This document shows positions 2,638 through 25,492 of a stretch of DNA of 25,492 bases, piece by piece (the first letter of the stretch is position 1; every line of letters starts with the position of its first letter). Made by a program: the position numbers and the translations under genes. Under the pieces are notes generated by a model. It was given only the letters and a program-made list of their open reading frames with translations, did not search any database and was not told the origin of the DNA. Origin of the DNA: a virus; IMG/VR virus record IMGVR_UViG_3300030419_003063, positions 17,471 to 42,962 of that record. One strand, 5' to 3'.

Positions 2638-5600
2638 ATGGAAGATATCAAGTTTGTAAATTTGCATGCTCATAGTGGTGTAGGTTCCCCGTTCGATGGA
2701 TTTGGATATCCGCAAGAGCATATGGACTATGCATTTCAAAATGGCTCTAAAGCTTTGGCTTTGACAGACCATGGCAATATGAATGGGTTGGCGTACCAAG
2801 TCTTACACGCTAAGAAGATGGAAAAGGAAGGTAAAGACTTCAAACCTATTTATGGAGTGGAAGCCTATTTCATACCTTCAGTAGAGGAGTGGCGCATAAA
2901 GCTAGAAGAACACAGGGCTGACAAGAAGAAAGCCAAGGAGATCTCCAACGAAAAATCTGGTACAAATATAGAAGAAGAAGGTGCATCTAAATCCGCCGGC
3001 CGCAGTGAATTAAACCGTAGTCGACACATGGTTTTATTGGCAATGAACCAGACTGGGCTACAAAACATTTTCAAACTAGTCTCTTTAAGTCACACAAAAG
3101 AGTACTTTTATCGCAAGCCGCGTATCGACTTCAAAGCTTTGGAGAAACATTCAGAGGGTGTTATTGCGCTGTCTGCATGTCTTGGTGGTATATATGCCGG
3201 CTGTTATTGGCAAAACCGAGAACAAGGCTCAGAGGCAGTCCTTGAGTGTATGAGAGATATGACCAAGAAAATGACAAACATTTTTGGCGATCGCTGGTAT
3301 GGAGAAATACAATGGAATCGAGTGCCCGAACAACACGAACTTAATAAGTATGTTATACAAATGCACAAAGAGTTTGGAATTCCTCTTGTGTCAACTGCTG
3401 ATTCTCATTACCCAACTCCACAAGCGTGGAAAGATAGGGAATTATATAAACGTCTTGGCTGGCTTGGCAGAACTAAGCCTGAATGGCTCGACATGGAGCT
3501 TCCGACTGAAGTACAGGAACTTGAATGTGAACTTTATCCCAAGAACGGACAGCAGATGTGGGAAGCATATAATTATTATTCAGAAAAATGTGGAGTAAAA
3601 TACGATGATAAACTTATATTGGATAGTATTCAAGAAACTCACAGGATTTCTTTTGAGCGTATTGAAAGATATTATCCTGATGATACCATTCGTCTACCTG
3701 ACTTTGTGGTTCCTGCTGGATATACTGCCGACGATTATCTTGGGCGGCTAGCCACTGAAGGTTTATTTTCTATGCTGAAGCTCAACAATAACTTGAGTTC
3801 TAAGGAAGAATATAAGCCAAGGCTCGATCGCGAACTTAAGGTCATCGCTGACCGTGGGTTCTCTAAGTACTTCTTGACAATGAAGGCAATCAGTGACAAG
3901 GCTAGCCACATGATGTTGGCCGGCCCGGGCCGTGGCTCTGCTGCCGGCTCTCTGGTAGCTTATGTGCTGGGCATCACTCAGATTGATCCGATTAAGCATG
4001 GGCTTCTATTTTCAAGGTTCTTACGTTCAGATGCAAAGGACTATCCGGATATTGATTATGATGTGTCAGACCCAATGGCTCTGAAAGAGACTCTAATTAA
4101 AGAGTGGGGTTCTAACACAGTAGTGCCAATATCCAATTGGAACACTTTGCAACTTAGATCACTGATCAAAGATATCAGCAAATTCTACGGAATACCATTC
4201 AAAGAATCTAATGTAGTGACTAATAAGATGATCTCTGAAGCCACCCCTGTTGCTAAGAAGAAGCACGGAATCAAGGCTGGAGTATATGTGCCTACTTGGG
4301 AAGAAGTTATGGAATATAGCAACTCGCTTCAAGATTTTCTTAAAAAATACCCTATTGTGGAGAAACATGTCAAGGCTATGGTTGGGCAATATCGGTCATG
4401 CTCTAGACACGCCGGAGGCGTTGTGGTTTCGGAAAATATTGATCGCTATATGCCGCTCATTAGGTCTGGCGATGTAATGCAAACACCATGGAGTGAAGGT
4501 CAGAATGTTAGACAGTTAGAGCCAATGGGTTTTATTAAGTTTGATATTTTAGGACTAAGCACTCTGCGTATGATTGAAAGCTGCATCAGGAGAATTCTAA
4601 TTAAAGAGGGCAAACACAACCCATCGTTTCAAGATATTGTGAAATTTTATAATGAGAAATTACATCCAGATGTTCTTGACACTGATAATCAAGAGGTTTA
4701 TGAAAATGTCTTTCACCAAGGCAAGTGGGCCGGTATTTTTCAGTTTACCGAATCTGGCGCACAGAAATTCTGCCAGAAGGTAAAGCCAAATTCTATCGTC
4801 GACATTTCTGCTGTCACCTCTATCTTCCGCCCCGGGCCACTTTCTGCCGGCGTTGACAGAGACTTTATGGACGCTAGAAGGAATCCGGACGATATTTACT
4901 ATGAGAATAAAGTAGTCGAAGATGTGACCAAGGAGACATATGGTTTTCTGATTTTCCAAGAACAGATTGCATTGCTAGCTCACAAATTAGGTAAGAATCT
5001 GAGCTTGGATGAGGGCAATTTACTTCGCAAACTTTTGACAAAGAAAGGAACAGATAAGGCCAAGCTTAAACATAATATTCGCATTAAGTTTATTACTGGG
5101 GCAACAGAGAAGGGGTTGACGATCGAAGACGCTGAAGACCTATGGCGCCGTTTTGAATATTTCTCAGGCTATGGTTTCAATAAATCTCATGCTGTTTGTT
5201 ATTCTATCGTATCATATCAATGTGCTTGGTTAATGACGTACCACGAGGCCGAATGGCTGGCTTCTTATCTAGACAAAGAGACAGACAAGAAGAAAGAGAA
5301 AGCAATTGCAACAGCCAAATCACTGGGATATAAGATATATCCCGTAAACATCAACACCTCTTCCAGACATTGGGAGGTCAAATCCGGAGCATTATATTCT
5401 CCACTAAGCTCCATTAAAGGATTAGGGGCAGCAGCTATGGATCAAATTATAAAAAACCGACCGTTCAATACTGCTGAGGATTTTTTGTTCCACCCAGAAG
5501 TGACATACAGCAAATTAAATAAAAAGGCATTAGATGTCCTATTTCGTGCAGGAGCATGTCAGCATTTGGTTGACGAAAGATTCACCGGTGCAAAGCACTT

Positions 5601-6090
5601 TTGGTCTGCTGCTATAGTTGACCGCCCAAAGAACAAGAAGAAGTTTAGAGATAATATAGAACTTTATAAAGATGAAGGTGATTTTAGTGTCTCTGAAATA
5701 ATAAGCAACAAGACATCATTGACTGGGGTTTACCCATTTGAAATGATAATGACAGACGAATTGCGTCAACGATTGAATGACTTGAATGTTGTGCCAATCT
5801 CTGAATATGAAACTGCCCTGTCAATGGGCAGCGATTGGAATGTCGATGACGTTTTGTTAGTCTGGTTCGTGCCTCGCAGCCTCAAAAAGAAAAAGACTGC
5901 TAGAGGTGCGGAGTATTGGATACTAGAAGTCATTGATGAAAACAATATCATGACCAGAATTAAGTGCTGGGGTCCAAAAGAGAAAGATAAGATCGACCCA
6001 AATCAACCATATATGGCTAGGATCGACTACAGCGCACAGTGGGGCTTTAGCACTCGATCAGTTTATCACAACTTTAGGAAAATATCTTGA
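2638..6090 (+). CDS. dnaE: DNA polymerase III alpha subunit (DnaE-type) with intact PHP domain
   Basis: A C-family replicative polymerase of 1150 residues, about the size of bacterial DnaE. The N-terminal PHP domain keeps the expected metal ligands: H10/H12 (LHAHS), D44/H45 (LTDHG), E75 (GVEAYF), H130 (SRHMVLL), C181 (LSACLGG) and D255/H257 (TADSHY). A lysine- and glutamate-rich insert sits at about 92-128. The palm has GPGRGSAAGSLVAYVLG, then the catalytic pair D471/D473 in DYPDIDYDV and the third aspartate D636 in IKFDILGLSTL. Fingers motifs FQFTESGAQ, RPGPLSAG and SGYGFNKSHAVCY follow. A helix-hairpin-helix (IKGLGAAAMDQI) and a short OB-like region (YWILEVIDENNIMTRIKCWG) end the protein. 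It is alone between two GAATA...CGTC elements and has an AGGAG ribosome site. It is probably the phage replicase and may proofread through PHP. Confidence 0.96.
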   Translation: MEDIKFVNLHAHSGVGSPFDGFGYPQEHMDYAFQNGSKALALTDHGNMNGLAYQVLHAKKMEKEGKDFKPIYGVEAYFIPSVEEWRIKLEEHRADKKKAKEISNEKSGTNIEEEGASKSAGRSELNRSRHMVLLAMNQTGLQNIFKLVSLSHTKEYFYRKPRIDFKALEKHSEGVIALSACLGGIYAGCYWQNREQGSEAVLECMRDMTKKMTNIFGDRWYGEIQWNRVPEQHELNKYVIQMHKEFGIPLVSTADSHYPTPQAWKDRELYKRLGWLGRTKPEWLDMELPTEVQELECELYPKNGQQMWEAYNYYSEKCGVKYDDKLILDSIQETHRISFERIERYYPDDTIRLPDFVVPAGYTADDYLGRLATEGLFSMLKLNNNLSSKEEYKPRLDRELKVIADRGFSKYFLTMKAISDKASHMMLAGPGRGSAAGSLVAYVLGITQIDPIKHGLLFSRFLRSDAKDYPDIDYDVSDPMALKETLIKEWGSNTVVPISNWNTLQLRSLIKDISKFYGIPFKESNVVTNKMISEATPVAKKKHGIKAGVYVPTWEEVMEYSNSLQDFLKKYPIVEKHVKAMVGQYRSCSRHAGGVVVSENIDRYMPLIRSGDVMQTPWSEGQNVRQLEPMGFIKFDILGLSTLRMIESCIRRILIKEGKHNPSFQDIVKFYNEKLHPDVLDTDNQEVYENVFHQGKWAGIFQFTESGAQKFCQKVKPNSIVDISAVTSIFRPGPLSAGVDRDFMDARRNPDDIYYENKVVEDVTKETYGFLIFQEQIALLAHKLGKNLSLDEGNLLRKLLTKKGTDKAKLKHNIRIKFITGATEKGLTIEDAEDLWRRFEYFSGYGFNKSHAVCYSIVSYQCAWLMTYHEAEWLASYLDKETDKKKEKAIATAKSLGYKIYPVNINTSSRHWEVKSGALYSPLSSIKGLGAAAMDQIIKNRPFNTAEDFLFHPEVTYSKLNKKALDVLFRAGACQHLVDERFTGAKHFWSAAIVDRPKNKKKFRDNIELYKDEGDFSVSEIISNKTSLTGVYPFEMIMTDELRQRLNDLNVVPISEYETALSMGSDWNVDDVLLVWFVPRSLKKKKTARGAEYWILEVIDENNIMTRIKCWGPKEKDKIDPNQPYMARIDYSAQWGFSTRSVYHNFRKIS

Positions 6091-10808: not shown

Positions 10809-11471
10809 ATGAAGTTAACATGGAACAACGGTGAAAAAGAGAAAGTTGATAAAGATAATGAGGAAGAATCTATTGAAGAGGCTAAGTCTGCCCTATTGCA
10901 ACAACTAGAGAGTCCTATGGATAGCATGAGGTCTATGGCGTTGTATGGAGATATTCATGAAGAGAAAGCCTCTGAGATTGTTGGAGGTCTGTTAGCCTTG
11001 CAGCACATGGGTAAATCATGCGAAGAAGAGAGTGATCGGGCCATCGAGATGTTTATTTCAACTTACGGAGGCTGCGCTGATGACATGTTCTCAATTGTTG
11101 ATATTATGTCAGTAGTAAAACAAACTTGTACAATTAAGACAATTGGTATTGGTAAAGTTATGTCTGCTGGTGTACTGGTTCTCGCCTCTGGTACAAAGGG
11201 AGAGAGATATATTGGCAAAAACTGTCGGGTAATGCTTCACTCTGTTAGTGCAGGACATCATGGAACTTTACATAATTTAGAAAATGAGATAGAAGAAGTG
11301 AGAAAATTGCAAGATTTGTATATTGAAAACCTAATTACAAAGACAAACTTAACTAAAAAGCAAATTCGTGCCTTTTTGAGAAGAAAGTCTAATGTCTATC
11401 TTAGTGCAGAAGAAGCTATTAAGTACGGCATCGCAGATAAAATATACGGAGTAGAAGAGGATGGTGAGTGA
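10809..11471 (+). CDS. S14 / ClpP-like serine peptidase
   Basis: 220 residues. It has the ClpP core: FISTYGGCADDMFSIVD (oxyanion GG), the nucleophile Ser119 in GKVMSAGVLVLASG, His144 in VMLHSVSAG and the C-terminal LSAEEAIKYGIADKI. By alignment with E. coli ClpP (DRFLSAPEA), the catalytic Asp position is occupied by Asn195 (NVYLSAEEA); Listeria ClpP1 is known to carry such an Asn. The first 35 residues are charged and have no clear ClpP counterpart. The RBS is AAGGAG. No ClpX or ClpA is in the window. It could be a head-maturation protease of the S14 type or a protease acting on host proteins; the neighbours do not decide. Confidence 0.9.
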   Translation: MKLTWNNGEKEKVDKDNEEESIEEAKSALLQQLESPMDSMRSMALYGDIHEEKASEIVGGLLALQHMGKSCEEESDRAIEMFISTYGGCADDMFSIVDIMSVVKQTCTIKTIGIGKVMSAGVLVLASGTKGERYIGKNCRVMLHSVSAGHHGTLHNLENEIEEVRKLQDLYIENLITKTNLTKKQIRAFLRRKSNVYLSAEEAIKYGIADKIYGVEEDGE

Positions 11472-14273: not shown

Positions 14274-15845
14274 GTGAAAACATATTCTAATAACACATGC
14301 TTACATCAATCAATAGTGGAGGGAGTTAATAAGTTGGCAGACAATGTTGCAACAACATTAGGGCCAAAAGGGAGGAATGTAATTATTAAATATAAAAACA
14401 AGATCCCTTTTGTAACCAAAGATGGTGTTACAGTCGCTAAAGCTGTTACACTAAAAGATCCCTTTGAGAACGCTGCGGCAGAGATTATCAAACAAGCGAG
14501 CCTACAGACCAATTCAGAGGCTGGTGATGGCACAACAACTTCTACTGTTTTAGCCAGAGCAATTATAAATAAAGCTCAAGCTTATATTGCTGCTGGTGTT
14601 TCCCCGGTGGAACTCAAAAGGGGTATGGATAAGGCAGCAGTTCGTATAATGGAGCGATTAACTGAAAACGCAACCCCCATAAAGTCGGTTAAAGACATCA
14701 AACATGTTGCTACAATTTCGGCCAACAATGATTCGGTCATTGGTGACTTAGTATCAAAAGCTGTTGATTTGGCTGGAAAAGACGGTTCTGTGATTATCGA
14801 AGAGGGAAGGAGCAATCAAACCTCACTCGATGTTATAGAGGGCTTTAGGATCGATTCTGGCTATGCTGCTGGTGCTTTCGTGACAGATGAGCGTAGAGCT
14901 ACATGTTATTATGAAAAGCCATTGATTCTTGTGACAGAAGATAAATTAGAAACAGTCGAAGAGATGCTACCAGTACTTGAGCAAGTAGCCAGAGATGGTA
15001 GGCCATTGGTAATTGTCGCTGATGATATTGTTGAGCAAGCACTTGCTGCGCTTATAATGAACGCAGTACGGGGTACCATGAAAATTGTTGCAGTAAAGGC
15101 TCCGAAATATGGAGAAGAAAGAAAAAGCATATTAAAAGATTTGGCTATTTCAGTCGGCGCTACTTATATTAGTAGGGAGTCTGGTGTGCAACTTAATAAA
15201 GTTACATTAGAAGATTTAGGTTCTGCTAAATCTGTAGAAATAAATAAAAATGACTCTTGCTTTGTTGGAGGTAAAGGTGACTATGAAAAAATTGAAAGAA
15301 GGATTGAAGCGGCTAAAGAACAGCTTCGCAATACAGATTCTCCTTACGAAGGCGAAAGAATACAGGATAGAATTACTCGCCTTGCTTCTGGTGTTTCTGT
15401 TATACGAGTTGGTGGTTCTACAGTCGTTGAGATGACAGAAACAAAGCACAGAGTTGAGGATGCACTTGAAGCTGTCAAGGCAGCACAAAAAGAGGGAGTT
15501 GTTTCTGGCGGAGGTGTCGCCCTGTTGAACGCTGTAAAAAACTTAACTGTTGAAACTGAAAACCAAGATCAATCAAGGGGAGTTGACATTATTACCAGTG
15601 CCTGTCAAGAGCCAATCCGACAAATGGCTCGTAACTGTGGAAAATCAGAAGATATAATCATAGACATGTTGACTAACGAAGAGTCAGATGTTGTTGGTTA
15701 TGATTTTAGAAATAGCTCAATTGTTAATATGGTTGAAGCTGGCATCATAGATCCAGTTAAAGTGACTCGGTGCGCACTCAAAAACGCAGTCTCAGCAGCA
15801 GGGACATTGCTAACAACAAACTATGCTGTAATTGAAGTTGAATAA
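14274..15845 (+). CDS. groEL: GroEL-type chaperonin encoded by the phage
   Basis: 523 residues, near the 548 of E. coli GroEL. ATP-site motifs are present: TTLGPKGRNV (28-36), TKDGVTVAK with Asp50, and AGDGTTT with Asp85. The ATPase Asp396 lies in VEDALEAVKAA, followed by EGVVSGGGVAL. The apical part has the usual SGYAAGAFVTDE and KAPKYGEERKSILKDLA. It ends at AVIEVE without the flexible GGM repeat tail. Translation starts at GTG 14274 after GGAGGA; an ATG alternative is not in frame nearby. No GroES is recognisable in the window, so it may use host GroES, an unrelated co-chaperonin, or none. It probably folds phage virion proteins. Confidence 0.96.
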   Translation: MKTYSNNTCLHQSIVEGVNKLADNVATTLGPKGRNVIIKYKNKIPFVTKDGVTVAKAVTLKDPFENAAAEIIKQASLQTNSEAGDGTTTSTVLARAIINKAQAYIAAGVSPVELKRGMDKAAVRIMERLTENATPIKSVKDIKHVATISANNDSVIGDLVSKAVDLAGKDGSVIIEEGRSNQTSLDVIEGFRIDSGYAAGAFVTDERRATCYYEKPLILVTEDKLETVEEMLPVLEQVARDGRPLVIVADDIVEQALAALIMNAVRGTMKIVAVKAPKYGEERKSILKDLAISVGATYISRESGVQLNKVTLEDLGSAKSVEINKNDSCFVGGKGDYEKIERRIEAAKEQLRNTDSPYEGERIQDRITRLASGVSVIRVGGSTVVEMTETKHRVEDALEAVKAAQKEGVVSGGGVALLNAVKNLTVETENQDQSRGVDIITSACQEPIRQMARNCGKSEDIIIDMLTNEESDVVGYDFRNSSIVNMVEAGIIDPVKVTRCALKNAVSAAGTLLTTNYAVIEVE

Positions 15846-21257: not shown

Positions 21258-21516
21258 AATTACACTAACACCCTTTGAGGTCGCATCAGAGAACAGTCAA
21301 CAGTTCGCAATAAATATGTATACATTCTACCTATTTCAGAAATCATGCAATGAGTTATTGTTGGCCGATAAAGTTATAAAAAGAGCTTTGGCTGTTACTG
21401 AGGACGAGGTAGAAATGGAAAGATTACTGAAGGAGTTCGACAAAAATACTTTGGCATGGGATATGATTATGAAACTTGATGCTTTGTCTGGAAGCTCTTG
21501 TTATGCGGAGGCTTAA
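21238..21516 (+). CDS. Small helical protein, 92 aa
   Basis: The ATG lies inside the 3' end of the zinc-knuckle gene (20-base overlap). The product is helical with a charged C-terminal part (TEDEVEMERLLKEFDKN) and no recognisable motif. The last codons GCGGAGGCT supply the ribosome site for the next gene. Function unknown. Confidence 0.7.
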   Translation: MTKKKDKITLTPFEVASENSQQFAINMYTFYLFQKSCNELLLADKVIKRALAVTEDEVEMERLLKEFDKNTLAWDMIMKLDALSGSSCYAEA

Positions 21517-21758
21517 TGCTGTATGAAGTTGGTGATTTGCTAAAATTTAAAGACAAATGGTGGTCAGTCTATGAAATGGAAGACGTATGGGAATATGGTA
21601 TCCTGATTGATAAGTCATTTATATTTGATAAAACTAATTGCCCCGATTGGGGTGATGGCATTAGAGTGGATGAGTTTACGGTATATAATTTTTCCACAGG
21701 TGCGAAGTATTTGATTGATACTTCTAAATATGATATAGAGATAGTTGTCAAAAAATGA
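21516..21758 (+). CDS. GDL-type small SH3/KOW-like protein, divergent first member, 80 aa
   Basis: The ATG at 21516 overlaps the previous TAA by one base and follows GGAGG; an in-frame start at 21498 is less likely. The N-terminus MLYEVGDLLKFKDKWWSVYEM resembles the MKVGDLVK start of the array proteins downstream. It ends DIEIVVKK, where array members inside an operon would have EVISESR; it is the last gene before the element at 21757. Confidence 0.75.
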   Translation: MLYEVGDLLKFKDKWWSVYEMEDVWEYGILIDKSFIFDKTNCPDWGDGIRVDEFTVYNFSTGAKYLIDTSKYDIEIVVKK

Positions 21759-21781
21759 ATAAATGTTGATCTTGAATCGTC
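21757..21781 (+). promoter_or_regulatory. Repeated GAATA-N16-CGTC element, start of the GDLV array
   Basis: GAATA at 21757 and CGTC at 21778-21781, with ATCTTGAAT before it. GAGGTG at 21790 is the ribosome site for 21801, 8 bases after CGTC, as in the copies at 6089 and 15840. Spacing is one base longer than in those copies. Confidence 0.55.
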
Positions 21782-21800
21782 TGAGTATTGAGGTGTGACA

Positions 21801-22004
21801 ATGAAAAGACTTTGGCCAAAACAGGGCGACATTGTAAAAATAACCGCAGAGCATCATTATAAACTTGGTGCCATTGGCGTTGTTGTGGGTGACTATGCAA
21901 AATCTAAACATAACGCTGGCAAGGCTTATCATATAAGGTTTTTCGATGGCACTAAGCGCACCTGTTTTAAAAAGAATTTTGAGGTGATCAGTGAAAATAG
22001 GTGA
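21801..22004 (+). CDS. GDLV-family small protein 1, 67 aa
   Basis: The ATG at 21801 follows GAGGTG with a 5-base gap, the same geometry as the internal junctions; an in-frame GTG lies at 21795. The protein starts MKRLWPKQGDIVKIT, has GAIGVVVGDY and IRFFDGTKRTCF, and ends FEVISENR. The strand pattern fits a small SH3/KOW-like barrel. Its last 14 bases are also the first 14 of the next gene. Confidence 0.8.
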   Translation: MKRLWPKQGDIVKITAEHHYKLGAIGVVVGDYAKSKHNAGKAYHIRFFDGTKRTCFKKNFEVISENR

Positions 22005-22167
22005 TTTAGTTAAAGTAAAGGATGTGTTGCCCTTGAAACACCTTGTCGGTCACGTTGGTGTCATTACCAAAGAAAGGTATAATAAGCATTGGGTGAAAGT
22101 CCATATCTCAGGAGAGACAAAAGGTATTAGAGTAGGTGACTTGGAGGTGATCAATGAAAGTAGGTGA
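21991..22167 (+). CDS. GDLV-family small protein 2, 58 aa
   Basis: GTG start at 21991, 14-base overlap with the previous gene; GAGGTG at 21981-21986 is the ribosome site and also codes Glu-Val of the upstream protein. The product starts (M)KIGDLVKVKDVLPLKHL, has GHVGVITKERYN and WVKVHISGE, and ends LEVINESR. The Asn codon AAT creates an ATG start for the next gene instead of GTG. Confidence 0.82.
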   Translation: MKIGDLVKVKDVLPLKHLVGHVGVITKERYNKHWVKVHISGETKGIRVGDLEVINESR

Positions 22168-22369
22168 TTTAGTGAGATACAAATGGCAAAAGATGTGGAA
22201 TAAATACTCTTCTGCTCTTGGCAAACAAGAGTGGCATGAGAGGTTTGACAATTATTATGGAGTCATATATAAGATAGATTCAGTCATGTCTACAGTTTGG
22301 ATTAAATTCAGCGATAAAACTACATCACTCAAAGCCAGTGAAATCGAGGTTGTGTCTGAGTGTCAGTAG
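22154..22369 (+). CDS. GDLV-family small protein 3, 71 aa
   Basis: ATG start at 22154, 14-base overlap. Starts MKVGDLVRYKWQKMWNKY, then YYGVIYKIDS, TVWIKFSDKTTSLKA, and ends IEVVSECQ, a drifted version of the usual tail. The barrel-like pattern GVI...VWI.F.D is clear. Confidence 0.85.
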   Translation: MKVGDLVRYKWQKMWNKYSSALGKQEWHERFDNYYGVIYKIDSVMSTVWIKFSDKTTSLKASEIEVVSECQ

Positions 22370-22569
22370 AATTGGTCAAAGTAGGGGATCTTGTGCAGCT
22401 TAACCAAGACTGCACCAATATTCTTGGTTTGTGCGTAGGTATATCAAAGAGCAAAAAGCGTTGGACAAGGCGGGCAAAGATACTCTGGATAGGGAGCAGC
22501 AGAGTCTCTTCTATATTAATTATGCGTTTAAAGACAGCACATCGAGGTTATAATACAATAGAAGTATAG
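22360..22569 (+). CDS. GDLV-family small protein 4, diverged, 69 aa
   Basis: GTG start at 22360, 10-base overlap instead of 14; an in-frame TTG at 22372 would give VKVGDLVQ directly. The protein has VELVKVGDLVQLNQDCTN, GLCVGISKSKKRW and AKILWIGSS. It stops right after NTIEV, lacking ISESR, and the next gene begins 7 bases later. This is the one internal junction that has decayed. Confidence 0.7.
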   Translation: MSVELVKVGDLVQLNQDCTNILGLCVGISKSKKRWTRRAKILWIGSSRVSSILIMRLKTAHRGYNTIEV

Positions 22570-22576
22570 TTATTAT

Positions 22577-22819
22577 GTGTGTGATGAACTTGAAATAGGT
22601 GACTTAGTGCTTTGGCATAACTCAAAAGAATTTATGGGAATTGTAGTAGATTTAAACTCAGGCTCTTATGTCGATAGAGCTTTTATCTATTGGTTTACAG
22701 CAAGCACCGAAGCACACAAAATACTTGGTGGCGGCCTTCCATTGGTCGGTGCTGGCTGGGAGCCTGTAACATTTTTAAAAGTTTTTAAAAAAGGAAATTT
22801 GAATAAAAACAAATCTTAA
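22577..22819 (+). CDS. GDLV-family small protein 5, operon-terminal, 80 aa
   Basis: GTG start at 22577; nearby ATGs are out of frame. Starts (M)CDELEIGDLVLWHNSKEF, then GIVVDLNSGS and RAFIYWFTAS. It ends in LKVFKKGNLNKNKS without the SESR tail; the 3' end runs into the GAATA...CGTC element at 22801. The ribosome site is weak, so reinitiation after the gene at 22360 is likely. Confidence 0.7.
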   Translation: MCDELEIGDLVLWHNSKEFMGIVVDLNSGSYVDRAFIYWFTASTEAHKILGGGLPLVGAGWEPVTFLKVFKKGNLNKNKS

Positions 22820-22825
22820 TCCGTC
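22801..22825 (+). promoter_or_regulatory. Repeated GAATA-N16-CGTC element
   Basis: GAATA at 22801, CGTC at 22822-22825 preceded by ATCTTAATC. The leader after it contains TGAACCTAAGCAACTGGAG, a near copy of the TGAACCCAAGAAAGAGG leaders at the next three elements. CGTC to ribosome site is about 21 bases. Confidence 0.6.
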
Positions 22826-22856
22826 TGATATATGAACCTAAGCAACTGGAGAAAAA

Positions 22857-23243
22857 ATGGCTTATTTGAAGAAAGATGATATTGTATTGTTTAAAGGTGC
22901 TGGTACTATACAGTCAATCGTTACCGATGTGCGATTCCGCAGATACAGAGGAAAATATACAGATAAGAAAACAGGCGAAAAGAAGAAGAAATGGAAATCA
23001 ATGCCTTATGCTATCTGTAAAGTATTCTCTACTAACGATAATAGTGTTAAAGTATCGCAAGAATTCTTGATTCCGGGCTATAAACTTAGAAATACCTTTA
23101 AGGAAGGCAAGAAAGTTTTGGTTTTACACGACAAATATGTAGCAGAATTCCAAGGCCAATATGGTGCGGAGTGGGCTTCTAAGATCATTGAAGAGAGCCA
23201 GAAATTTAGGAGCAAAGGAGGTGACAATGAGGAAGAGGAATAA
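22857..23243 (+). CDS. Larger GDLV-related protein, 128 aa
   Basis: Preceded by CTGGAG. Starts MAYLKKDDIVLFKGAGTIQ, close in style to the GDLV family but with KDDIV. It continues IVTDVRFRRYRG, a basic stretch TDKKTGEKKKKWKS, YAICKVFSTN, and a C-terminal extension KKVLVLHDKYVAEF...EESQKFRSKGGDNEEEE. Basic and acidic ends suggest nucleic-acid contact or disorder. It overlaps the next gene by 17 bases; its last codons (AGGAGGTGA) are that gene's ribosome site. Confidence 0.8.
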   Translation: MAYLKKDDIVLFKGAGTIQSIVTDVRFRRYRGKYTDKKTGEKKKKWKSMPYAICKVFSTNDNSVKVSQEFLIPGYKLRNTFKEGKKVLVLHDKYVAEFQGQYGAEWASKIIEESQKFRSKGGDNEEEE

Positions 23244-23538
23244 ACATATAGTTTGCGCTGATGGCTTTAAAATGTCAGTCCAAGCTCATGAAGGAGCATA
23301 TTGTACCCCAAGGATAAGTGATGCTGATTATTATTCTCATGTAGAGATAGGTTATCCAAGTCATGTTGAGCCTTTAATCCTCTCTTATGCTGAACAAAAA
23401 GATCGGCCAATGGATACTGTTTATGGATATGTGCCAAGGGAAAGGGTAATGCTGGTGGTCTTAAAGCATGGTGGCCAGATTTCTGGTCAAATGCCCAATG
23501 GAATACCAATTTTGCCTCCGCCGAAAAAAAATGAATAA
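23227..23538 (+). CDS. Uncharacterised conserved-type phage protein, 103 aa
   Basis: The ATG at 23227 has a perfect AAAGGAGGTGA (23214-23224); a longer in-frame reading from 23161 is rejected. The product (HIVCADGFKMSVQAHEGAYC, ISDADYYSHVEIGYPS, TVYGYVPRERV, HGGQISGQMPNG) resembles a family of phage hypothetical proteins with DGF.MSVQA, VE.GYPS and TVYG.VP blocks; no function is known to me. It is the last gene before the next element. Confidence 0.8.
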   Translation: MRKRNKHIVCADGFKMSVQAHEGAYCTPRISDADYYSHVEIGYPSHVEPLILSYAEQKDRPMDTVYGYVPRERVMLVVLKHGGQISGQMPNGIPILPPPKKNE

Positions 23539-23557
23539 ATATAAATCCTAATCCGTC
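23533..23557 (+). promoter_or_regulatory. Repeated GAATA-N16-CGTC element with conserved leader
   Basis: GAATA at 23533 and CGTC at 23554-23557, followed by TGAACCCAAGCAAGAGGTGC and the ATG at 23587. The leader is nearly identical to those at 24522 and 25086, so element, leader, ribosome site and KVGD coding start repeat as one block. Confidence 0.62.
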
Positions 23558-23586
23558 AAAGTAATGAACCCAAGCAAGAGGTGCTT

Positions 23587-23769
23587 ATGAAAGTAGGTGA
23601 TTTGGTTAAATATTGTGGATTACTAAAAGGCGAAGAAGAATTGCCTACTGATACTGGGATTATCCTCTCTATTAATGAAGATGGGTACTATAAAGTCCTA
23701 TGGTCTGATGGTAACTATGATGAAGATTTGATCTACTCAGAATTAGAGGTGATCAGTGAAAGTAGGTGA
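23587..23769 (+). CDS. GDLV-family small protein 6, 60 aa
   Basis: ATG after GAGGTGCTT. Starts MKVGDLVKYCGLLKGEEE, then TGIILSINEDGYYKVLWSDG, and ends LEVISESR. This is a textbook member: MKVGDLV, GIIL, V.W.DG, EVISESR. The 14-base 3' overlap with the next gene is exact. Confidence 0.88.
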   Translation: MKVGDLVKYCGLLKGEEELPTDTGIILSINEDGYYKVLWSDGNYDEDLIYSELEVISESR

Positions 23770-23926
23770 TTTGGTTATGCACGAAATGTGGGGGCTTGCC
23801 ATAGTATTCAAGAAGGTCAGTCCACACGTTAATAGGTGGTGGATTAGAGTTTTAGATAAACAATGTTATAAGCAAGATTATACTTGCTGGGCGGCAGAAT
23901 GTGAGGTGCTAAGTGAAAGCAGGTGA
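23756..23926 (+). CDS. GDLV-family small protein 7, 56 aa
   Basis: GTG start at 23756 with GAGGTG at 23746. Product (M)KVGDLVMHEMWGLAIVFKK, then WWIRVLDKQCYKQ, and end CEVLSESR. The serine codon AGT again provides the GTG of the next gene. Fourteen-base overlaps on both sides. Confidence 0.85.
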   Translation: MKVGDLVMHEMWGLAIVFKKVSPHVNRWWIRVLDKQCYKQDYTCWAAECEVLSESR

Positions 23927-24137
23927 TTTATTAAGAAATGTGGCAACTGGTGAGTTAGCGATAATACTATCAACTTTTACTAAGTTTTTTCAAGACCCAG
24001 ATGCTTATGGTTGTGATTATGACTGTGGTGTAGCAGATACAGCAATTCGCATCAAATGGATAGAAAACGGTCACGAAAGAACCATTAGAAGAAATAGATT
24101 AAAATACAATTGGGAGGTGATTAGTGAAAGTAATTGA
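23913..24137 (+). CDS. GDLV-family small protein 8, 74 aa
   Basis: GTG start at 23913 with GAGGTG upstream. Starts (M)KAGDLLRNVATGELAIILS, has a longer loop DPDAYGCDYDCGVAD with two cysteines, then AIRIKWIENGHERTIRRN, and ends WEVISESN. Coupled by the 14-base overlap to an unrelated Smr-like gene. Confidence 0.87.
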   Translation: MKAGDLLRNVATGELAIILSTFTKFFQDPDAYGCDYDCGVADTAIRIKWIENGHERTIRRNRLKYNWEVISESN

Positions 24138-24336
24138 TTTGCATGGAGTTAGACATAAGGATGTATATGGATTATTAGAAAAGCCTTGCATAAACGATGA
24201 TATACCATTTGCGGTTATCACAGGAAAGTCTGATACAATGAAAAAGATTGTAACACAAATTGTTGCAACCTTTGGGCTACATACCAAAGAGAAGCTGGGT
24301 AATAGCGGGAGGCTAATAATCTGTGAAAGTAGGTGA
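24124..24336 (+). CDS. Smr-like domain protein inserted in the array, 70 aa
   Basis: Not a GDLV barrel: the sequence is (M)KVIDLHGVRHKDVYG, then PFAVITGKSDTMKKIVTQIV. DLHG (5-8) followed by a strand and the loop ITGKSDTM (32-39) is the layout of the Smr (small MutS-related) domain, which binds or cuts nucleic acid; the usual HGxG is changed to TGKS. It uses the same GTG junction with 14-base overlap at both ends, and ends LIICESR, so it carries the last part of the array tail despite its different fold. Confidence 0.78.
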   Translation: MKVIDLHGVRHKDVYGLLEKPCINDDIPFAVITGKSDTMKKIVTQIVATFGLHTKEKLGNSGRLIICESR

Positions 24337-24523
24337 CCTAATAAAGATATATCCGAAAGATGGAGCGGTTTCTTGTGTCGTTGGTATATATCTTGGTGAC
24401 GAGAGAGAACCATACCAGACGGACACCAAATTTTGGATTAAAAGTCCTGTTTTTTTAGTGAACGGTCAGCGAAAAACATATAATAAGCTTGACTACAGAT
24501 TTGAAATTATAAAAAAAGATTGA
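24323..24523 (+). CDS. GDLV-family small protein 9, operon-terminal, 66 aa
   Basis: GTG at 24323, 14-base overlap with the Smr-like gene; GGGAGG at 24307-24312 is the probable ribosome site. Starts (M)KVGDLIKIYPKDGAVSCVV, then GIYLGDEREP and FWIKSPVFLVNGQRKTY. It ends FEIIKKD, without SESR, immediately before the element at 24522. Confidence 0.85.
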   Translation: MKVGDLIKIYPKDGAVSCVVGIYLGDEREPYQTDTKFWIKSPVFLVNGQRKTYNKLDYRFEIIKKD

Positions 24524-24545
24524 ATATATAAATTTTTCACACGTC
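24522..24545 (+). promoter_or_regulatory. Repeated GAATA-N15-CGTC element with conserved leader
   Basis: GAATA at 24522, CGTC at 24542-24545. From GAATA through the following ATG this block is almost identical to the one at 25086 (TATAAATTTTTCA, then CGTCAAAATAGTGAACCCAA). TATAAAT recalls the T4-type late promoter box, but other copies lack it. Confidence 0.62.
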
Positions 24546-24574
24546 AAAATAGTGAACCCAAGAAAGAGGTGCTT

Positions 24575-24730
24575 ATGAAAGTAGGTGACTTAGTAAAAAC
24601 ACATAGAGGTAATCTTGCCTTTATTACAGAAGTTGGTCGTGATTGGTGCAATATATTATTTATCACTTCCGGTAACCATAGGACAGGCTTTCCCATAGAG
24701 TGGATCAGGGTGCTAAGTGAAAGTCGGTGA
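24575..24730 (+). CDS. GDLV-family small protein 10, 51 aa
   Basis: The shortest member: MKVGDLVKTHRGNLAFITEV, then WCNILFITSGNHR, ending IRVLSESR. ATG after GAGGTGCTT in the conserved leader. The stop overlaps the next GTG start by 14 bases. Family membership at both ends supports it despite its size. Confidence 0.83.
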   Translation: MKVGDLVKTHRGNLAFITEVGRDWCNILFITSGNHRTGFPIEWIRVLSESR

Positions 24731-24911
24731 TTTAGTTAAATGGATTGATTATAAAGCAGACATTCCGGTTGAGCATATAGGGATTGTTCTAAAATTTTAC
24801 AAAAGCACTATGAGAGACTATGTTGATTGGTCTGATATGGTTGTATTGTCTGGAGGCAGACAACAAACATGGACTTCTTGGCAATGCGAGGTGATACATG
24901 AAAGTAGGTGA
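24717..24911 (+). CDS. GDLV-family small protein 11, 64 aa
   Basis: GTG start at 24717; ribosome site AGGGTG. Product (M)KVGDLVKWIDYKADIPVEH, then IGIVLKFYKST, VVLSGGRQQTW, and end CEVIHESR. The histidine codon CAT creates the ATG of the next gene. Confidence 0.86.
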   Translation: MKVGDLVKWIDYKADIPVEHIGIVLKFYKSTMRDYVDWSDMVVLSGGRQQTWTSWQCEVIHESR

Positions 24912-25095
24912 TTTAGTGGGTATTGGCTGGAGCGGAATAAAAAAACAACCATTCCCAGCAATAATTACAAAGGTACACAAAAAGTTTAGCTATCAACAAT
25001 CCAAGTCTTATACTGTTTATATATTTAGTAATTGCAAGAAGGCATTTGCTACAGAGAGAGATTTGAAAAAAATTGAAGATTATTTGAATATATAA
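24898..25095 (+). CDS. GDLV-family small protein 12, operon-terminal, 65 aa
   Basis: ATG at 24898 with GAGGTG upstream and 14-base overlap. Starts MKVGDLVGIGWSGIKKQPFP, then AIITKVHKKF and YTVYIFSNCKKA, ending KKIEDYLNI. The SESR tail is missing; the element at 25086 overlaps its 3' end. Confidence 0.86.
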   Translation: MKVGDLVGIGWSGIKKQPFPAIITKVHKKFSYQQSKSYTVYIFSNCKKAFATERDLKKIEDYLNI

Positions 25096-25109
25096 ATTTT
25101 TCATGCGTC
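25086..25109 (+). promoter_or_regulatory. Repeated GAATA-N15-CGTC element with conserved leader
   Basis: GAATA at 25086 and CGTC at 25106-25109; differs from the block at 24522 by only about two bases through to the ATG at 25139, indicating recent duplication. Here GAATA is read in a different coding frame (Leu-Asn-Ile-stop) than in other copies. Confidence 0.62.
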
Positions 25110-25138
25110 AAAATAGTGAACCCAAGAAAGAGGTGCTT

Positions 25139-25306
25139 ATGAAAGTAGGAGATTTGGTCAGACACAAACCATCAAAGACTTTAGGTTTGATTACTTATGT
25201 TTTCTTTTCTAAGAATTTGAAAGGCTTAGTGGAAGTCCGGTGGCTCGATGGCCTTGCCGGTGACATTGAATGTAGGCACATTGAGGTGGTCAGTGAAAGT
25301 AGGTGA
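25139..25306 (+). CDS. GDLV-family small protein 13, 55 aa
   Basis: ATG at 25139 after GAGGTGCTT; an upstream in-frame ATG at 25103 would read through the leader and is rejected. Product MKVGDLVRHKPSKTLGLITY, then LVEVRWLDGLAGD, ending IEVVSESR. Confidence 0.87.
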   Translation: MKVGDLVRHKPSKTLGLITYVFFSKNLKGLVEVRWLDGLAGDIECRHIEVVSESR

Positions 25307-25481
25307 TTTAGTAAAAGATAAAGAATACGATGACGCTGCTTCGTATGGTGTGATTATCCGCATTGGAGATTTGAGAACGAAAAATCCTTACCACATTTTA
25401 TGTTTTCGAGGTGGTGTTCTATCTAAATTTCCAAAGGATTATGTGCAGAACCACTGTGAGGTTATCAATGAAAGTAGGTGA
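25293..25481 (+). CDS. GDLV-family small protein 14, 62 aa
   Basis: GTG at 25293 with GAGGTG upstream; a longer in-frame reading from 25248 is not needed. Product (M)KVGDLVKDKEYDDAASYG, then VIIRIGDLR and YHILCFRGGVL, ending CEVINESR. The Asn codon supplies the next ATG. Confidence 0.86.
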   Translation: MKVGDLVKDKEYDDAASYGVIIRIGDLRTKNPYHILCFRGGVLSKFPKDYVQNHCEVINESR

Positions 25482-25492
25482 TTTAGTAAAAG
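25468..25492 (+). CDS. GDLV-family small protein 15, cut by window end
   Basis: ATG at 25468 with the exact 14-base overlap; the visible part encodes MKVGDLVK. The array therefore continues beyond the window. Confidence 0.8.

Follow-up and report, generated by a model that had tools for sequence, protein, structure and literature searches.

The window, by which we mean the whole stretch of DNA analysed here (25.5 kb out of a 43-kb IMG/VR record), comes from a large marine-type phage with a long row of tiny overlapping genes. This array (21516-25492, plus strand) runs past the window end and consists of SH3/KOW-like KVGDLV genes, which we call barrel genes, together with a few non-barrel genes. 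From about 21516 onwards its genes are small and lie on the same strand, and successive members overlap by 14 nt. The majority of the array proteins are 55-75 aa long, start with [MV]KVGDLV and end with LEVI-[SN]-E-S-R. The start motif had 22 matches in the window, compared with 6.3 ± 2.3 in shuffled sequences, none of which (0/100) reached 22. With a neutral gene caller, the 14-nt overlap accounted for 434 of 643 barrel-barrel pairs. A search of the literature library for published descriptions of such barrel arrays found none there.

Sigma-70-like promoters and terminators were no more frequent within the array than expected by chance. An element composed of TATAAAT, a spacer and YGTC was observed ahead of non-overlapping array-gene runs at 23540-23557, 24527-24545 and 25091-25109 (three matches, 0.37 expected); it is part of a 75-nt repeat and resembles the -10 box of phage late promoters. 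The array member at 22360-22569 looks frameshifted, with a KVGDLV start and its natural barrel end (..FYINYAFKDSTSRL) in another frame. Elsewhere in the window, an apparent DnaE-type polymerase (2638-6090), ClpP-like protease (10809-11471) and full-length GroEL-like chaperonin (14274-15845) were recognized by eye.

The gene of interest (24124-24336, plus strand) encodes a protein of 70 aa (VKVIDLHGVRHKDVYGLLEKPCINDDIPFAVITGKSDTMKKIVTQIVATFGLHTKEKLGNSGRLIICESR, followed by the stop codon); it starts with GTGAAAGTAATTGA, ends with CESR, and is flanked by two barrel genes, with each of which it shares an overlap of exactly 14 nt. The upstream barrel gene (23913-24137, plus strand; VKAGDLLRN...NWEVISESN; barrel profile E 1.2e-5) has the C-terminus EVISESN rather than ESR. 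The downstream barrel gene (24323-24523, plus strand; VKVGDLIKIYPKDG...; barrel profile E 7.5e-5) is the last in its overlapping run. The initial annotation had given the gene these same boundaries, a GTG start joint, a CESR end and a 14-nt overlap into the next member, all of which we found to be correct.

A mini-Smr protein encoded between two barrel genes

The initial annotation had also proposed that the protein is an Smr domain and not a GDLV barrel, and structure prediction agreed. The AlphaFold2 model (pLDDT 88.9) showed a β-α-β-α-β-β arrangement, that is, an Smr fold and no SH3/KOW barrel. The best structural neighbours in VIA-align were the Smr domains of MutS2 (4och, Z 9.9; 2zqe, Z 9.6), with an rmsd of 2.1-2.2 over 70 residues; a human Smr domain (3fau, Z 8.4), YdaL (3qd7, Z 7.6) and SmrB (7qgr, Z 6.6) ranked lower. 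Unrelated folds reached Z 8.4 (SirA/TusA-like) and Z 7.7 (Alba), and the best Foldseek E value of 0.04 is weak if used alone.

Relatives gathered by protein search yielded a family alignment of 17 members, 10 of which matched Pfam Smr (PF01713; best 1.3e-7). The window protein itself fell below the reporting level in the Pfam scan, and its membership in PF01713 is thus by way of intermediates. A PHROGs scan gave nothing useful, a profile search of PDB sequences returned no Smr chain, and no relative was found in the genome-contig collection. Weak matches in the annotated phage collection were limited to two unannotated records of 630-640 kb, and the window DNA matched none.

The D5-L6-H7 codons (24136-24144, plus strand) encode the DxH motif, and the residues D5, L6, H7 and G8 are invariant in all 17 members, so that the LDxH/DxH signature is present. 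The ITGKS codons (24217-24231, plus strand) occupy the position of TGxG/HGxG; I32, T33, G34 and S36 are invariant in the 17 members, and every one of them reads ITG[KN]S in place of the HGxG/TGxG loop-3 motif of Smr subfamilies 1-3 (PMC3200294). Because the second glycine is replaced by serine, we filed the protein as a divergent Smr relative and not under subfamily 1, 2 or 3. The likeness to PF01713 proteins (the Smr domains of MutS2, YdaL, SmrB and N4BP2/Cue2) extends to the predicted fold, the DLH(G) motif, the core-domain size and the Pfam matches of the relatives, whereas the window form differs in being a stand-alone protein of 70 aa, in having TGxS for TGxG/HGxG, and in its lack of an N-terminal extension. 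The predicted fold and the family links together confirm gene 24124-24336 as Smr-like.

Anatomy of the joints on either side of the Smr gene

At the 5' end of the Smr gene, the Shine-Dalgarno sequence GGAGGTGAT (24113-24121, plus strand), which forms the 5' half of the joint, lies in the last strand of the upstream barrel, in codons E-V-I. It is followed by the 14-nt overlap between the barrel end and the Smr start (GTGAAAGTAATTGA; 24124-24137, plus strand). A stop/start overlap with a Shine-Dalgarno sequence inside the upstream gene is the arrangement of a coupled pair, and translation of the Smr may be coupled to that of the upstream barrel. At the 3' end, an internal Shine-Dalgarno sequence, GGGAGG (24307-24312, plus strand), is located 10 nt ahead of the next barrel start, and a second 14-nt overlap (24323-24336, plus strand) joins the Smr end (ESR and stop) to that start (GTGAAAGTAGGTGA), the 3' half of the joint. 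Although the initial annotation was right about the 14-nt overlap into the next member, the standard joint is incomplete at the 3' end: upstream of the start stands the Smr's own GGGAGG, not the barrel tail GAGGTGAT. Similar purine-rich runs were seen in the array Smrs of the related loci L001, L002 and L022.

An overlap of this kind might in principle permit +1 frameshifting and so yield a fusion of the upstream barrel with the Smr, and natural barrel-Smr fusions do exist in relatives (see below). Against this, no stable RNA fold was predicted at the joint (z 0.51), the Smr has its own strong Shine-Dalgarno sequence and start codon, and the same overlap is common to hundreds of barrel-barrel pairs; we regard frameshifting as very improbable.

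The pattern of conservation shows of what the joint is made. Barrel-to-barrel joints keep both halves, TTGGAGGTGATCA ahead of the start codon and RTGAAAGTCGGTGATTTGGT behind it, while barrel-to-non-barrel joints keep only the first half and non-barrel-to-barrel joints only the second. This pattern indicates that the first half is the last strand of the upstream barrel (LEVI) and the second half is the N-terminus of the downstream barrel. The coding sequence of the LEVI strand also spells a near-perfect Shine-Dalgarno sequence. The barrel N-terminus, read in one other frame, gives E-S-R-stop (14-nt overlap); in the third frame a stop comes immediately (GTGA, 4-nt overlap).

The ends of the array Smrs follow from this arrangement. 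The window protein ends with ICESR, and those of L001, L002 and L030 end with VCECR, ISESI (next gene VKAYD) and ISESR; L022 has VDEV (next gene MKYS, 11-nt overlap) and L090 has VEDR (4-nt overlap). Since E-S-R is the start of the next gene (RTGAAAGTNGGTGA) in another frame, the ESR tail is an automatic read-out of that gene and not, as the initial annotation implied, a tag of the captured gene. A search among free-standing Smr relatives for an ESR ending, which that annotation had suggested, returned only TEQEFVI, KEH, IEH, VLG, TRR and VTH, none of them ESR. Judged from the free relatives that end with ..TEQEFVI, ..KEH and ..IEH, the terminal glutamate is native to the Smr. The MKVIDLHG start is also present in the free-standing Smr of L004, and the suggestion that KVIDL suits the coding constraint of the joint was borne out: native MKxID starts give TGA once codon 4 ends in T.

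Exchange of genes at the joints and history of the Smr slot

The comparison set consisted of 110 related loci fetched by the joint pattern, so that conservation of the joint is partly selected for; nor are the pairs independent of one another. Among 270 orthologous barrel pairs from different loci (50-95% identity), 227 were followed by unrelated genes. Both joints measured 14 nt in 162 of these swaps. When these were aligned on the start codon, DNA identity was 0.59-0.70 upstream, 0.75-0.89 across the joint and 0.63 at +14 to +20, and it fell to the chance level of 0.26-0.32 from +21. The barrel directly upstream of the window Smr, for example, has a 62% orthologue in L049/L025 that leads through the same 14-nt overlap into a barrel and not into an Smr. 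The unrelated genes found in array slots encode a SWIM finger, a MazG-like protein, a gp32-like SSB, an N6/N4 DNA methylase, a ligase-Ia-like domain and a DUF2061 membrane protein, and the foreign folds that lie between joints are Smr (window, L001, L030), MazG-like, SWIM, DUF2061, L022:548 and L108.

Two groups of these genes had further features. The DUF2061 membrane protein of L118 (reverse strand, 1752-1952 in reverse-complement coordinates; Pfam 9.5e-8) has a grafted barrel start, VKVGD, and an EDESR end that runs into the next barrel, and thus looks like a two-sided chimera made at joints. The MazG-like genes (KLVRDxIPEII) of L022 (3745-4050), L091 and L123 overlap barrels by 14 nt with the overlapping stop TAG, not TGA.

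By these comparisons the 14-nt overlap behaves as a cassette boundary in the array, and homologous recombination at the joint is what we infer from the breakpoints only. We found no closely related phages of which one has the Smr at a given site and the other lacks it, and hence did not observe the insertion directly. The overlaps could instead have arisen by compaction with no cassette mechanism, the 14 nt of the Smr being due solely to the TGA that MKxID and MKVGD starts happen to carry in the overlapping frame. Many non-barrel genes that run into a barrel start do get a 14- or 4-nt overlap automatically, and when a gene caller that favours 1-, 4- and 14-nt overlaps was replaced by a neutral one, the 14-nt enrichment for non-barrel genes became weaker, remaining modest (p 2e-4 for pairs, p 0.034 for families). 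However, compaction does not explain why neighbours change systematically and why the breakpoints lie at the joint, nor does it account for the hybrid start in L118, and we consider it an unlikely explanation; the joint/cassette mechanism appears quite probable. In the form put forward by the initial annotation, a general cassette joint, one part of the idea stood, in that the boundary accepts other folds and neighbours are widely swapped, but the joint is not one self-contained element: its halves travel with the upstream C-terminus and the downstream N-terminus.

Taken as a mechanism, every array gene bears half a joint at either end. The Shine-Dalgarno sequence and start codon of the next gene lie within the 3' end (barrel tail LEVI-[SN]-E, GGAGGTGATHARTGAA), the stop of the previous gene is contained, in another frame, in the 5' end (RTGAAAGTNGGTGAT), and cassettes have been exchanged across phages at the joints. 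Recombination within about 20-35 nt of shared sequence would swap genes and leave the ribosome-binding site, start and stop intact, and for this reason any gene with first codons giving RTGAA...NNT-GA/RA would fit. The Smr would fit because its native N-terminus (MKVIDLHG) and its C-terminal strand (L-I-x-x-E) already satisfy the demands of the joint, its last residues (SR, CR, SI, V or DR) being set by the following gene.

Six array Smrs from different phages fall on one side of a branch with support of 100/100, apart from the free-standing and fused forms. Their 5' and 3' joints are 14/14, 14/14, 14/14, 14/11, 4/14 and 4/4 nt, and the neighbouring barrels were not orthologous among the four array Smrs compared. 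Because all six group together, no more than one entry has to be assumed, and the simplest reading is that the Smr entered once and that reshuffling around it followed. In a comparison of G000 with G001, the Smr was 90% identical, while most other shared proteins were at 28-79% and matched barrels below 40%, with the exception of a 31-residue stretch of another protein that reached 87%. The Smr codon differences comprised 28 synonymous and 7 non-synonymous changes, a pattern that points to old divergence under strong purifying selection. We considered recent horizontal transfer of the Smr between G000 and G001 and rejected it: despite the 90% protein identity, 32 of 71 codons differ at the third position. 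In G001, the non-barrel genes shared with the window (22857, 23227 and 24124) appear in reverse order on the same strand.

Two of these genes, 22857-23243 and 23227-23538, are kept in G001 at 45% and 54% identity, in a different order, and relatives of the latter come after barrels in other arrays (L090, L097, L125, L131). In one phage group (L068-L076) free-standing Smr genes keep a constant position upstream of a RecA-like gene, at a distance of one to three small genes.

These data also bear on the idea that the Smr is a foreign gene taken up by a self-contained 14-nt joint, with the ESR tail as the mark of capture. The 14-nt overlaps on either side of the Smr, the free relatives that lack ESR, and the grafted VKVGD start and ESR end of the L118 DUF2061 protein all favour it. 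On the other hand, the tail reflects the next gene's start in another frame and changes whenever that start does, the 3' joint of the Smr shares nothing with the standard joint upstream of the start, and the Smr start is native. Moreover, overlaps of 4 and 11 nt also occur in the array Smr clade, and entry specifically through a 14-nt joint is thus not supported. Such a capture seems unlikely to us, and we favour, with a probability of roughly 0.7, the view that the gene is a divergent phage mini-Smr, a long-standing resident in a swappable array of overlapping small genes.

Barrel fold, fused relatives and likeness to known systems

The AlphaFold2 model of the barrel member at 23587-23769 showed a five-strand SH3-like barrel (pLDDT 86.8). 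Its structural neighbours included the KOW domains of Spt5 (Z 8.1), of MutS2 on a collided disome (8r55_z; Z 7.5, rmsd 1.5) and of NusG, and also PsaE and NdhS. SH3-like barrels all look alike at Z 7-8, and the KOW match is consequently generic rather than specific.

Three array-bearing loci encode a KGD barrel and an Smr in a single ORF: L018 (1951-2376), L159 (reverse strand, 5197-5622 in reverse-complement coordinates) and L040 (6057-6497). Each has an N-terminal KGD barrel, a basic linker of KRRR type and a C-terminal Smr. The fused barrels matched the array profile weakly (3.6-8.5 bits), and the fused Smrs belong to a clade other than that of the array Smrs. DxH Smr domains of E. coli, yeast and worm act on collided ribosomes, where they cut the mRNA, DxH being catalytic in domains of the SmrB/Cue2 type; KOW domains help to recruit MutS2 to collided ribosomes, and Bacteroidetes carry KOW-SMR proteins (PMC10897456). 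The fusions parallel the KOW-SMR end of MutS2 and suggest that Smr and barrel are partners in function, and that the Smr is not a foreign gene inserted at random. The earlier description of the Smr gene as "unrelated" to the array is thus hard to maintain, and it is doubtful that its fold is foreign, given these fusions in related phages and the known pairing of KOW with SMR (PMC10897456).

With its intact DxH, the protein could tentatively be a small nuclease of the SmrB/Cue2 kind, directed at RNA or ribosomes and probably with a KOW-like partner; because GxS stands in place of the GxG found in nuclease-active Smr domains, we keep this assignment below even odds. A stronger version makes the Smr the functional partner of the barrels and not a guest, a split KOW-SMR in which the KOW-like barrels would be interchangeable guides that bring one fixed Smr effector to its ribosome or RNA targets. 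The fusions argue for it, as do the MutS2 Smr and KOW domains among the structural neighbours of two array proteins, the role of the KOW and SMR pairing in recruiting MutS2 to collided ribosomes (PMC10897456), and the strong conservation of the Smr beside diverging barrels. However, most of the fetched arrays contain no Smr, the barrel neighbours of the Smr are not conserved, and the fused forms are related to the array at best by 8.5 bits for the barrel and by another clade for the Smr. This reading therefore remains rather unlikely. Less likely again is a full split KOW-SMR machine, in which a conserved Smr nuclease would stand beside shuffling KOW-like adaptors for ribosome, RNA or host-defence targets, and the 14-nt overlap would couple the synthesis of effector and adaptor.

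The array, with its long-resident mini-Smr, has partial counterparts in known systems. Conserved boundary sequences are a feature of the lambda nin region. As in phage mosaicism (lambdoid phages; relaxed homologous recombination, PMC2327257), related phages exchange genes where they have a short boundary sequence in common, but in this array the boundary consists of an overlapping coding joint that holds the Shine-Dalgarno sequence, start and stop, is repeated along one array and is common to paralogues. Like integron gene cassettes, the array presents interchangeable small genes in a single row; unlike them, with their attC-type folded site, it has no recombination or non-coding site between genes, and the shared sequence is coding and unstructured. 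The overlapping stop and start, with a Shine-Dalgarno sequence inside the upstream gene, resemble termination-reinitiation coupling (PMC6728339, PMC10666635). Coupled genes usually overlap by 4 and 1 nt, and overlaps of more than 8 nt are rare (PMC10666635), whereas the array is dominated by 14 nt. The pairing of an SH3/KOW-like barrel with an Smr recalls the Bacteroidetes KOW-SMR proteins and the KOW-SMR end of MutS2 (PMC10897456); the window differs in having separate overlapping genes with a variable barrel partner, fused only in L018, L159 and L040, and sequence gives the barrel relationship weak support.

Overall, the joint is a 14-nt coding overlap that carries a ribosome-binding site, start and stop and doubles as a homology boundary, and genes of any fold would thereby be exchangeable without breaking expression. 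It represents a compact natural design for modular operons, and it makes phage gene shuffling testable at base resolution. The conserved Smr slot amid fast-changing barrels, together with the KGD-barrel fusions, offers a handle on what barrel arrays may do, possibly RNA or ribosome targeting.
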